From: a virus
Length of the DNA stretch: 39,260 nucleotides
Virus record (IMG/VR): IMGVR_UViG_3300031364_000008
Location: 1 to 39,260 of that record
Direction: 5' to 3' (one strand)
A program made the position numbers and the translations under genes. Numbering within the stretch: the first letter of the stretch is position 1; each line of letters opens with the position of its first letter. Shown piece by piece: positions 1 to 39,259 of this stretch. The notes beneath the pieces are model-generated. The model saw only the letters and a list, made by a program, of their open reading frames with translations. It was not told where the DNA came from and did not search any database.

Positions 1-384
1 TACACCTTTCGCAACATTGATAGAAGTTAGTTTTAACGGATCATCAAATCCCCTAAAAAGTATTTTTTGTCCGGTTGATTTGTATGTTGCCTCGCAGGGG
101 TTAAGAGTAAATTTCCAGAGGTGTGTTACGTGCAATCTTTCCGCGGCTTTTTGAAGCTCCGCAAACGTGGATGTCTCGTGGGTGTTCCCCGTCTGACGTA
201 CAACAAGTGTGTTCGACAGCGGATATTGCATCATATTGTAGATATACCACATTGCCGCAGTGGTAGATTTTTTTGACGACCTCCCGCCCTTTACAACACG
301 GTACGGTTTACGGGTGTTCCAAAAAGACCCGTACCCCTTTCCGATAACTTCCGGAATATTAACGGTGACTACTGTTTTTGCCAT
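1..384 (-). CDS. terL: Terminase large subunit, N-terminal part (cut by contig end)
   Basis: The ATG at 384 opens a frame that runs off base 1 and continues at 39133. It carries the ATPase N-terminus: a Walker A-like loop VVKGGRSSKKSTT around residues 32-44, then the adenine-side RQT motif and FRGFDDPLKLTS. This is the Terminase_3 (PBSX/SPP1-like) pattern, in which GGRxSxKS replaces the classical P-loop. Joined to 38096-39133 the protein is 473 residues, a normal length. It pumps DNA into the prohead through the portal and cuts it. Upstream lie TerS and a small basic protein. Confidence 0.93.
   Translation of the reverse strand, partial: MAKTVVTVNIPEVIGKGYGSFWNTRKPYRVVKGGRSSKKSTTAAMWYIYNMMQYPLSNTLVVRQTGNTHETSTFAELQKAAERLHVTHLWKFTLNPCEATYKSTGQKILFRGFDDPLKLTSINVAKGV
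2..127. repeat. Terminal redundancy of a circular assembly (left copy)
   Basis: These 126 bases are identical to 39135-39260; only base 1 differs from its counterpart. An exact overlap of this length at contig ends is what a short-read assembler leaves when a circular or circularly permuted molecule is closed. The TerL reading frame runs through the junction without a break, which supports circularity. It is most likely an assembly overlap and not a biological terminal repeat, fitting headful packaging of permuted genomes. Confidence 0.9.
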
Positions 385-415
385 AAATCTAATCCTTTAA
401 TATTATCTGCGTCGA

Positions 416-1873: not shown

Positions 1874-1926
1874 ATCGTGTTCACGAAGTTTGTTTATTCT
1901 GTGCATTGATTTATCGTGTTCACGAT
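1874..1926. promoter_or_regulatory. Pair of ATCGTG-TT-CACGA operators
   Basis: Two palindromic sites, 1874-1887 and 1913-1926, share ATCGTGTTCACGA and lie 39 bases apart, close to four helical turns. One is upstream of the promoter and one lies between -35 and -10. This is the layout of a cooperative repressor. The sites differ from the palindrome of the RHH gene, so a second regulator (phage or host) is implied. Confidence 0.6.
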
Positions 1927-1934
1927 GCTATGAT
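1906..1934 (+). promoter_or_regulatory. Promoter of the plus-strand accessory operon
   Basis: TTGATT (1906-1911) and TATGAT (1929-1934) are 17 bases apart and drive rightward transcription toward the 57-aa gene at 1966. The spacer is almost filled by the palindrome ATCGTGTTCACGAT (1913-1926), so a bound protein would block polymerase. Confidence 0.65.
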
Positions 1935-1965
1935 TAAGCCATCAAAACAAATGGAGGGAAAGAAA

Positions 1966-2139
1966 ATGGAGAAATCGTTCAACTTCAAACACTACTCAGG
2001 AGCCAAATTTTTTGCAATATTCAATCCGGTAACAAGTAAGTACAACGTATATAAAGAAGATAAAATAACGTTCCTTGCGCCTTACACTGTTGACGAGGTC
2101 GAACGCAACATAAAGACAACGTCATGGGAAATCATCTAA
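1966..2139 (+). CDS. Small protein, first gene of accessory operon
   Basis: 57 residues from an ATG 7 bases behind GGAGGGAAAG. The sequence (KHYSGAKFFAIFNPVTSKYN, then VYKEDKITFLAPYTVDEVE) is rich in aromatic and beta-forming residues and looks like a compact single domain; I do not recognise a family. It has no signal peptide or membrane helix. It is the first gene of the plus-strand operon, and a hammerhead-like structure begins two bases after its stop codon. Confidence 0.7.
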   Translation: MEKSFNFKHYSGAKFFAIFNPVTSKYNVYKEDKITFLAPYTVDEVERNIKTTSWEII

Positions 2140-2140
2140 G

Positions 2141-2191
2141 CCGCACCGACGAGCTGTAACGACAGCGAAACCGGCGTAAGCCGGTCTGCGG
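2141..2191 (+). ncRNA. Hammerhead ribozyme candidate (type I)
   Basis: The 51 bases fold as a three-way junction with hammerhead core positions in order. Stem I is CCGCA/TGCGG (2141-2145, 2187-2191). Then come CCGACGA (2146-2152; consensus CUGANGA) and stem II GCTGT-AACG-ACAGC (2153-2166). GAA (2167-2169) precedes stem III ACCGGC-GTAA-GCCGGT (2170-2185), and C17 is at 2186. Cleavage would fall between 2186 and 2187. All three stems are perfectly paired, with A15.1-U16.1 and A2.1-U1.1 in place. The one core deviation is C for U4. It lies between the first gene and the J-domain gene, so it could process the operon mRNA. Confidence 0.7.
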
Positions 2192-2220
2192 ATACCAAAT
2201 ACGATATGGAGGGTTTGAAA

Positions 2221-2706
2221 ATGTATTTTAGAAACATTACTACTCTTGACGAGTTGAAAAAAGAATACCGCCGCTTGTGCATGTTGCATCATCCAGACAT
2301 TGGCGGCGATCTTGAGACAATGAAGGTGATTAACGCCGAGCACGACAAACTTTTTGAAACGCTGAAAACCCAGCACAACGCTACCGCTGACGAATACCAC
2401 CAGACAACAGAAACCGCCGAGGAGTTCCGCGATATTATAGAAAAGTTGTTACATCTTGATGGTCTGTCCGTTGAACTCTGCGGTTCCTGGCTTTGGATAT
2501 CCGGCGAAACCAAAAAGCATAAAGACGCGCTTGCCGCGGCTGGATGCCGCTGGAGCAAATCTAAAAATATGTGGTATTGGCACCATGCGGAGAGCGGCCG
2601 ACATTGGCGCCGAGGCAAAACGTCTATAGGTGAAATCCGGTCTAAATATGGCAGCACAGTTTATAGTAGCAATGGCAAATATGAAGGACTTCCGGAAGGG
2701 GCTTAA
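2221..2706 (+). CDS. J-domain (DnaJ-like) protein
   Basis: 161 residues starting at MYFRNITTL, 7 bases behind GGAGGGTT. Residues 1-45 form a minimal J domain with the HPD triad at 24-26 (CMLHHPDIGGD) after a basic helix (LKKEYRRL). The remainder has a linker (about 55-75) and a C-terminal domain, SWLWISGETKKHKDALAAAG then CRWSKSKNMWYWH, rich in tryptophan. J domains stimulate the ATPase of Hsp70/DnaK. Short J proteins of this design are familiar from phages and integrative elements of Firmicutes. A role in hijacking host DnaK is possible, but its purpose is unknown. Confidence 0.8.
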   Translation: MYFRNITTLDELKKEYRRLCMLHHPDIGGDLETMKVINAEHDKLFETLKTQHNATADEYHQTTETAEEFRDIIEKLLHLDGLSVELCGSWLWISGETKKHKDALAAAGCRWSKSKNMWYWHHAESGRHWRRGKTSIGEIRSKYGSTVYSSNGKYEGLPEGA

Positions 2707-2732: not shown

Positions 2733-3164
2733 ATGTTTGAATACAGATCGGACGCCGAACTTGGCGCACGCGTTTATCTTCTCAACCCTAATACAATGAA
2801 AACAATGAAAGACATTGAGGAAGCGGAGAGAAGTGCCTTACATGGCATTGAGCGTTTGCAAAATGCTATTAATAAAATAGGCGAATACCGCATGATGTTA
2901 TACGAGCGCGTGAAGGTGTTACAGACAGCAAACTACAAACGCATTCTCAAATTAGTACGCGATCCAAATTGGAGCGGCAAAAAATATTATAACGTGTCAA
3001 TCGTCAAGGATTATGGCGGCGACATTGGGGAAGTACGAGAATCGCACGAACGTTATGTCGGAGCCGAACGCGCAAAAGCATTCAAAAGATTTTCAGAATT
3101 AAAAAAGCAAAATCCAGGCATTGAGGTCTTTCAAGACACGGAAAAGCGAACTTGGGAAAAATAA
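2733..3164 (+). CDS. Hypothetical helical protein of accessory operon
   Basis: 143 residues, ATG 6-7 bases behind GAGGTAAG. The centre is predicted mostly helical (MKDIEEAERSALHGIERLQN, about 28-65). A conserved-looking end carries KRFSELKKQNPG and DTEKRTWEK. I recognise this type only as a frequent neighbour of small J-domain proteins in Firmicute mobile elements. No catalytic motif is visible. Same operon as the J-domain gene, 26 bases downstream. Confidence 0.7.
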   Translation: MFEYRSDAELGARVYLLNPNTMKTMKDIEEAERSALHGIERLQNAINKIGEYRMMLYERVKVLQTANYKRILKLVRDPNWSGKKYYNVSIVKDYGGDIGEVRESHERYVGAERAKAFKRFSELKKQNPGIEVFQDTEKRTWEK

Positions 3165-37855: not shown

Positions 37856-38096
37856 ATACTAATATCCTCTCTTCGTCGCTATATCCGTCGACTTCATCCA
37901 GCGCATCCCATATATCAGATTCTTTTTTTGCCGCTTTTTCAATTTCCTTTTTCTCCGAAACGTTTTTTATAATTTGAACCGGATTCTTGATTTTTGGAGG
38001 CTCCGCGCCCTTGGACATTATCGAGTGGTACTTCCATCCCATTCTGAATCCAAATAAAAAAAGCAGGACACTTATTCCCGCAAATAAATATTCCAT
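37836..38096 (-). CDS. Small membrane-anchored protein between TerL and portal
   Basis: 86 residues; start on the TerL stop (TAATG). An N-terminal hydrophobic helix (MEYLFAGISVLLFLFGFRMG) is followed by a basic then acidic cytoplasmic-type tail (KNVSEKKEIEKAAKKESDIW). A membrane protein in this position is unusual in a head operon; it might tether assembly or alter superinfection. Function unknown. Confidence 0.65.
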   Translation of the reverse strand: MEYLFAGISVLLFLFGFRMGWKYHSIMSKGAEPPKIKNPVQIIKNVSEKKEIEKAAKKESDIWDALDEVDGYSDEERILVYGRNDK

Positions 38097-39259
38097 TATT
38101 CCCTCACAAACTCACAAAAGCTTTTGTCGCAGTCGTAAAAACTAACTTCATTCTTAACGTATACACCGAACGGGTCGGGCATCATTTCTTTTACCGGGAC
38201 GTTACCGGGGCGGGGCCTTCCGGCTGTCCAATACCTTATTGCATCAGGCCCGTGAGTTAATTCGTGTGGTTCGGTAGCTACGTCGTTAGGGTCTTTATCG
38301 TCTTTTTGCACTTGCGGTAAGCACCGAATAATATTTTCGCAATTACTTAAAAATACGATATGCGCCGTTTCTTTTCCAAATTCATCCACGTATGGGGCCA
38401 GCCATTCTTTAAGATTTAACCACCCCTGTTTTCTGTTGTTTGATGCTTTCCATAATCTAATCCCGTGTTGACCAAATATCTCGGCGGTATTCAGGCCCGT
38501 TTCCCGCTGCCTGTTCCACAAATCCGGAGGCGCAAGGTATTGGTATATTTCTTCTCCGTCGTTTACCCTTAGTATTTCTTTAGCTGCTTCCGATATAATC
38601 AGTCCGCTTTTATACACTTCTTTATAAACGTAAGCTTTTTTTTGCCAATCAACAGCTATCCAATATGCCGCGAGCTTATCAAGTCCATAATCAAGAGTAA
38701 CGTATTTTCTCCAGTCTGATTGGATGTCAAACGGTTCTATAACGTGGATATATTTTCTAAACTCAACGAAAAACGCTCCTCCGGGTATACCGTATTCCCC
38801 AATCCCGACAACAAGATATCTTTCCGGATCATACAGCGCATTTGGCTTTCCGTCTATTTCTTTGACGTTTATGATTTCAATATCATCATGGTCTGCTTTC
38901 GATAAAAATTCATTGTCTTTATGTGTAGTAGTGAGGCGAAAAGTGTCTGACCTTTCCACGTCCCAAAACATTGTTTTGGTCCAGTGCGCGTTAATCCAGG
39001 GGTTATAAGTTAATGTTATTTGCTTCCATAATCCCGCCTCTTCTATTTCTATGCCGCGTATGGATTCACACAACGTTTTAAATGCTTCCTGGCTATCAAT
39101 CTCGTATGCTTCTTCGCACCACACCCAACAAAGAACACCTTTCGCAACATTGATAGAAGTTAGTTTTAACGGATCATCAAATCCCCTAAAAAGTATTTTT
39201 TGTCCGGTTGATTTGTATGTTGCCTCGCAGGGGTTAAGAGTAAATTTCCAGAGGTGTGT
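38096..39259 (-). CDS. terL: Terminase large subunit, C-terminal part (cut by contig end)
   Basis: This part includes the terminal redundancy; the non-duplicated piece is 38096-39133. The Walker B region reads VLCWVWCEEA just inside the junction, with the two acidic residues expected for ATP hydrolysis. Further on, VTLDYGLDKLAAYW and HGPDAIRYW carry aspartates at positions typical of the RNase H-like nuclease domain that makes the headful cut. The stop codon overlaps the start of the next small gene (TAATG), showing an operon. The Walker motifs place it in the terminase large subunit family with high confidence. Confidence 0.93.
   Translation of the reverse strand, partial: THLWKFTLNPCEATYKSTGQKILFRGFDDPLKLTSINVAKGVLCWVWCEEAYEIDSQEAFKTLCESIRGIEIEEAGLWKQITLTYNPWINAHWTKTMFWDVERSDTFRLTTTHKDNEFLSKADHDDIEIINVKEIDGKPNALYDPERYLVVGIGEYGIPGGAFFVEFRKYIHVIEPFDIQSDWRKYVTLDYGLDKLAAYWIAVDWQKKAYVYKEVYKSGLIISEAAKEILRVNDGEEIYQYLAPPDLWNRQRETGLNTAEIFGQHGIRLWKASNNRKQGWLNLKEWLAPYVDEFGKETAHIVFLSNCENIIRCLPQVQKDDKDPNDVATEPHELTHGPDAIRYWTAGRPRPGNVPVKEMMPDPFGVYVKNEVSFYDCDKSFCEFVRE

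Follow-up and report, generated by a model that had tools for sequence, protein, structure and literature searches.

Type I hammerhead ribozymes that flank single genes in prophages have been known since 2011 (Perreault et al. 2011, PMC3088659). Clustered hammerheads of this gene-flanking kind cleave both in vitro and in E. coli (PMC3088659). Some natural hammerheads carry a changed core. For example, the hammerhead of phage Bcep176 carries an A6C change and is slow, with a k_obs of <0.1 per min (PMC3088659). A viroid hammerhead with C in place of U at core position 4 (U4C) is described in PMC3088659, citing Ambros and Flores 1998, as considerably less active in vitro and sufficient in vivo. 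U4 contacts the backbone between A6 and N7 (PMC3088659), and a C at this position could presumably make the contact only if protonated. When MS2 was placed under selection against a hammerhead, mutants arose at most other core positions but none at U4, and the author linked the missing U4 mutants to the fact that natural hammerheads can vary to C at this position (PMC4075628). Because C4 is thus documented as an active natural variant (PMC3088659, PMC4075628), a hammerhead with C4 is a core variant and is not excluded from the class.

The locus described here lies in the 39,260-nucleotide viral record IMGVR_UViG_3300031364_000008 (the window), a phage whose genes include those for portal, terminase, and integrase. 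A complete type I hammerhead of 16 base pairs was read directly from its plus strand between two co-directional phage genes, a 57-aa ORF and a J-domain ORF (Table 1). The initial annotation had placed here three perfect stems around a junction in hammerhead order, with an open stem I and U4 as the only deviating core base. Direct reading and folding bear this out base for base, including the coordinates and numbering. The only departure from the core is the C at 2147; the other core bases are intact. The order and spacing of the three helices around the junction are those that a hammerhead requires, in the sequence, in the fold, and in a covariance model. The A15.1-U16.1 pair is formed by A2170 and U2185 at the base of stem III, and C2186 is the H at position 17. 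Folding of the local RNA gives the hammerhead as both the MFE and the centroid structure (-23.7 kcal/mol, z -3.0), and it is also present when a 356-nt transcript is folded. No ligand-binding extension is present in the element, whose stem loops are 4 nt. Neither a one-deviation motif scan nor a scan with the covariance model found a second hammerhead in the window, so it has no tandem copy.

Table 1. Features of the hammerhead locus, in coordinates of the window.
Feature	Coordinates	Strand	Basis or remark
Probable promoter, TTGATT-17-TATGAT, extended -10 TG	1906..1934	+	Promoter site numbers do not exceed shuffles
RBS/start ATGGAGGGAAAGAAAATG, repeat copy 1	1951..1968	+	Sequence comparison
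57-aa ORF	1966..2139	+	TAA stop at 2137-2139; 1 nt separates it from stem I
AG flank 5' of stem I, subclass signature	2139..2140	+	Association of AG..AU with UA loop II
Type I hammerhead ribozyme, U4C core variant; read-out CCGCA-CCGACGA-GCUGU.AACG.ACAGC-GAA-ACCGGC.GUAA.GCCGGU-C-UGCGG	2141..2191	+	Sequence, fold, covariance model R1 (63.3 bits)
Stem I, open, 5 bp, CCGCA pairs TGCGG	2141-2145, 2187-2191	+	Sequence, fold
Core C3-A9, CCGACGA, with C4 at 2147	2146..2152	+	Sequence
Stem II, 5 bp, GCTGT 2153-2157 / ACAGC 2162-2166, loop AACG	2153..2166	+	Fold
Core G12-A13-A14, GAA	2167..2169	+	Sequence
Stem III, 6 bp, ACCGGC 2170-2175 / GCCGGT 2180-2185, GUAA tetraloop	2170..2185	+	Fold
C17; predicted cleavage 2186/2187	2186	+	Hammerhead numbering, inferred
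AU flank 3' of stem I, subclass signature	2192..2193	+	Same association as AG flank
RBS/start ATGGAGGGTTTGAAAATG, repeat copy 2	2206..2223	+	Sequence comparison
J-domain ORF, HPD motif, phrog_15863	2221..2706	+	Pfam, PHROGs, relatives
143-aa ORF after J-domain gene	2733..3164	+	Adjacency conserved in relatives

The element is a variant of the prophage gene-flanking hammerheads, a real hammerhead with a rare but recurrent core change. It shares with them the secondary structure, the core, the open stem I, the absence of a large extension, and a position between co-directional phage genes; it differs from those in PMC3088659 in having C4, in being a single copy, and in having a stop codon that abuts stem I. 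The U4C viroid hammerhead, as cited in PMC3088659 and PMC4075628, is likewise a natural hammerhead with the same single core substitution, but it processes multimers whereas the element in the window is an intercistronic element of a dsDNA phage. The Bcep176 hammerhead is also a natural intergenic phage copy with a core deviation, but at another core position, and in this study a change at position 6 (A6G being the only one compared) was not recurrent. The most probable reading is that the element works as a type I hammerhead, probably at a lower rate than canonical copies, and that it would process a polycistronic early mRNA in a temperate phage of gut Clostridia.

Further evidence for a hammerhead comes from covariance model R1, which was trained on 31 U4 phage hammerheads with the window excluded. 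It matched positions 2137-2195 with 63.3 bits (E ~2e-15, by a rough calibration), and its runner-up in the window scored 11.1 bits. Permuted core words gave 1 match over six passes of 1.57 Mb of real phage DNA. The initial annotation had suggested a search with Rfam and had counted the lack of a match above threshold against the ribozyme. Formally, nothing in the window reaches an Rfam gathering score. The best model for the element was RF02275 (Hammerhead_HH9), with 20.1 bits, whereas its gathering score is 52; the core and stems II and III are the same, but the window lacks the extra stem I elements of the model. However, none of the canonical hammerheads in phages L073 and L136 (seven and eight textbook copies) scored above the Rfam threshold either. 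The Rfam miss is therefore uninformative for the element, and Rfam was dropped as an arbiter. Since the hammerheads of L073 and L136 are all under the gathering scores, the numbers of phage hammerheads recorded in databases are probably much too low. Stem covariation in alignment A3 was not taken as evidence, because it was partly circular: the stems had been a selection criterion for the sequences.

How did the ribozyme come to lie upstream of the J-domain gene? The J-domain ORF matches phrog_15863 (E 1e-49), and its match to Pfam DnaJ (E 8e-5) is under the curated cut-off. Its relatives come mostly from contigs of gut Oscillospiraceae and other Clostridia, and in many of them the 143-aa gene is next. 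A hammerhead was found directly upstream of the J-domain gene in none of 75 such loci (8 viral and 67 from bacterial genomes). The 57-aa protein has no relatives in viral contigs, phage records, Pfam, or PHROGs. The -10 region and leader TATGATT(A/G)AGCCATCAAAACA are common to the window and contig L004, and in L004 this leader is followed immediately by the J-domain gene, without the 57-aa ORF and the ribozyme. An imperfect 18-nt direct repeat (ATGGAGGG...GAAAATG, at 1951 and 2206) brackets the 57-aa ORF and ribozyme in the window and is possibly the footprint of an insertion. The simplest reading is that the 57-aa gene and the ribozyme are a cassette that was inserted ahead of the conserved pair of J-domain and 143-aa genes. 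Stems that are not conserved among relatives had also been named as a point against the ribozyme. The element is indeed absent at this locus in relatives, but an insertion of the 57-aa gene together with the ribozyme appears to account for that.

Two other observations concern the surroundings of the operon. Palindromic half-sites of the TCGTGTTCACGA type lie near its promoter (region 1860-1935, at ~1877-1887 and 1914-1926) and are a possible repressor operator. The ORF of the large terminase extends past both ends of the window (1-396 and 38096-39259, both on the minus strand), and the ends share the coding stretch THLWKFTLNPCEATYKSTGQKILFRGFDDPLKLTSINVAKGV, which amounts to a terminal direct repeat of ~125 bases. 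Because of this repeat and the terminase ORF across both ends, the record appears to represent a complete genome closed into a circle.

Type I hammerheads turned up in large numbers when viral contigs were scanned with patterns, and single operons often carried an array of three to eight. Operons with five to eight, nearly one per gene, were observed in L136, L137, L073, L083, and L103. The placement of phage hammerheads relative to genes was determined for 101 distinct ones with enough flanking sequence. The start of the hammerhead was at most 4 nt from the stop codon of an ORF of at least 45 aa in 48 of them, as compared with 3.3% of random positions, and between -12 and +10 nt of a stop codon in 77 (8.3% of random positions). 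An ORF led by a Shine-Dalgarno sequence began within 80 nt downstream in 73 of the 101, against 19% at random. The window element shows both features, as its stem I starts 2 nt after the last base of the TAA (2139) and a ribosome-binding site and then the ATG at 2221 follow. A stop codon that abuts stem I, seen in about half of the phage copies here, is unmentioned in PMC3088659, the text of which does not contain the phrase 'stop codon'.

The window element also belongs to a subclass of phage hammerheads. Its stem II can alternatively be read as a 4-bp stem with the loop UAACGA. Three features, all present in the window, make up the signature of the subclass: stem I is preceded by AG and followed by AU, and the stem II loop starts with UA. 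With the window left out, AG..AU flanks accompanied a loop II starting with UA in 9/9 hammerheads, several of which are from one phage (L073), compared with 5/91 of the other hammerheads. The search patterns contained neither the stem I flanks nor the stem II loop, and yet these co-occur, which suggests that they form a peripheral tertiary contact between stem I and loop II of the kind used by natural hammerheads to speed cleavage. A hammerhead in L096 has exactly the same stem II and loop as the window element. The exact sequence of the window ribozyme was absent from the viral contigs searched, and the exact subclass pattern had no match in the genome contigs. About 500 nt downstream of its hammerhead, L096 carries a Pistol ribozyme (RF02679, 7061-7128, 61.8 bits). 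This is also a self-cleaving RNA, in the phage with the closest subclass relative, but of another ribozyme class, and the window has none.

Is the C at position 4 a sign of decay? A C4 pattern in which the core was otherwise fixed and part of stem II was specified gave 55 matches, of which 7 had full hammerhead stems (L056, L075, L158, L165, L176, L190, and L193). Control scans gave no real hammerhead among 60 matches with A4 or G4 and none among 26 matches with A6G; U4C was compared with these three substitutions only. When the pattern allowed both bases, the full-stem hammerheads among the matches listed were 70 with U4 and 4 with C4, so that C4 made up ~5% of full-stem type I hammerheads among those matches. 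C4 was found in at least five lineages besides that of the window. In 350 genomes of the Oscillibacter valericigenes family, the C4 pattern gave 25 matches that, judged by eye, lacked stem II complementarity or were near the reversed-pattern control, and R1 found hammerhead candidates in at least 3 of the same 350 genomes. No description of U4C recurrence in DNA phages, or of a measured stop-codon placement, was found in the literature searched.

More direct evidence comes from L056, L158, and L193, which form one C4 family with identical core, stem I, and stem II. Their stem III sequences differ and yet all pair, with position 15.3 being C-G, G-C, or A-U. This comparison was done by hand, MAFFT having misplaced A15.1 of L056. 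C4 was thus kept in this family while stem III was re-paired, which would not be expected of a dead element. The genes upstream of the three ribozymes are homologous (proteins 59-66% identical) and the downstream genes differ, and the C4 ribozyme seems to travel with the upstream gene. The three also have a conserved spacer that ends in TTGGGCATG, and their downstream genes look unrelated. Most C4 phages that were checked have further hammerheads nearby, whereas the window has a single copy. In L190, three tandem hammerhead-like elements separate small genes (1950-2490, minus strand); the first has C4, the second and third have a loop-less GGCC stem II, and the third has U at position 3.

These results bear on the possibility that the window carries a hammerhead that arrived with the upstream cassette, was crippled by U4C, and now serves no purpose. 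The core is otherwise nearly invariant, in vitro activity of the viroid variant is described as reduced in PMC3088659, and relatives of the J-domain gene show no conservation at this locus. However, the ten other core positions, the 16 base pairs, the flanks of the subclass, and the loop are all intact in the window, and in one C4 family stem III was preserved by compensatory change. Moreover, random hits could fall on about eleven core positions in three ways each, and the change found is the one reported as tolerated and the sole recurrent one among those compared. Decay is therefore an unlikely explanation. The initial annotation had offered three views of the altered U4, a slower ribozyme, a regulated copy, and a decaying copy. 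The first finds support in the viroid literature; the last has become unlikely because C4 occurs in at least five other lineages, the control core changes are absent, and one C4 family has re-paired stem III. The recurrence of U4C in other phages suggests that the window carries a variant that is tolerated and not a ribozyme that is broken.

If the element is a functional hammerhead, how would it process the operon? A transcript that starts at ~1940 would cover, in this order, the 57-aa ORF, the hammerhead, and the J-domain and 143-aa genes. The ribozyme would fold just 3' of the stop codon and cut between 2186 and 2187. As the initial annotation foresaw, such a cut would split the transcript and give the J-domain mRNA a 5'-OH end. 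The upstream mRNA would end 47 nt past its stop codon with two hairpins (stems II and III) and a 2',3'-cyclic phosphate. The downstream mRNA would begin with a 34-nt leader (2187-2220) that has its own ribosome-binding site (GGAGGG). RNases that depend on a 5'-monophosphate, such as RNase J, use 5'-OH ends poorly, and the downstream RNA may therefore be stabilized. A terminating ribosome covers roughly a dozen nucleotides beyond the stop codon. It would thus keep stem I open, and cleavage would be expected after its release. The two parts of the operon would then have separate stability and translation, and the newly inserted gene would likely leave the older J-domain/143-aa pair undisturbed. 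Several points count against the functional reading. U4C is reported to lower activity considerably, the window has one hammerhead where most C4 phages checked have more, and the best Rfam score of the element is only 20 bits. In addition, no relative with a ribozyme at the same locus was found among the 75 J-domain loci, and there is consequently no direct conservation evidence for the copy in the window. Its function is argued by family resemblance, a close sister not having been found.

An improbable explanation is that the element is structured but non-catalytic, so that its stacked hairpins would serve RNA stability or be processed by an RNase, and the core would not be needed. A stable fold (z -3.0) right after a stop codon and ahead of a ribosome-binding site would fit such a role. 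Yet a plain hairpin gives no reason to keep the core words or the AG..AU and loop II signature, and the match is to a hammerhead model and not merely to a stem-loop. A regulated ribozyme is a very improbable reading, in which C4 would let cleavage depend on pH, Mg2+, a protein, or the departure of the terminating ribosome from the stop codon, so that the operon would be split only at certain times. In many phages the hammerhead starts so close to the stop codon that a ribosome terminating there would occlude stem I and some of the core, and the backbone contact of U4 (PMC3088659) may be open to a C only when protonated. However, the element has 4-nt loops without a ligand-binding extension, and its position at the stop codon is common to canonical U4 copies and so leaves C4 unexplained. 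Finally, a chance resemblance, which a simple motif and large databases might produce, has a negligible probability, as only ~0.0014 motifs are expected per window for the structure alone (2855 random windows matched in dinucleotide composition contained 4 with no more than one core deviation and a total stem length of at least 16), the stop-codon placement (~3%) and the subclass signature lower this further, and the independent model R1 gave its 63.3 bits.

The functional U4C hammerhead bears on a wider subject, as the role of prophage hammerheads is an open question (PMC6155905). The locus is a small test case with one promoter, one inserted gene, one ribozyme, and one conserved downstream pair, for which L004 and other relatives without the insert and ribozyme provide a natural control. 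A tentative and rather doubtful extension is that the U4C copies of DNA phages form a recurrent class under selection, made up of tuned ribozymes that are slow or conditional. These would lie directly behind stop codons, couple translation termination to self-cleavage, and give a graded separation of mRNA among operon members. With U4C recurring in phages, what had been one observation in a viroid becomes a natural series that can be used to test how variable the catalytic core may be. The stop-codon placement of the 101 phage hammerheads is a clue that these ribozymes may trim mRNA 3' ends and free downstream leaders.
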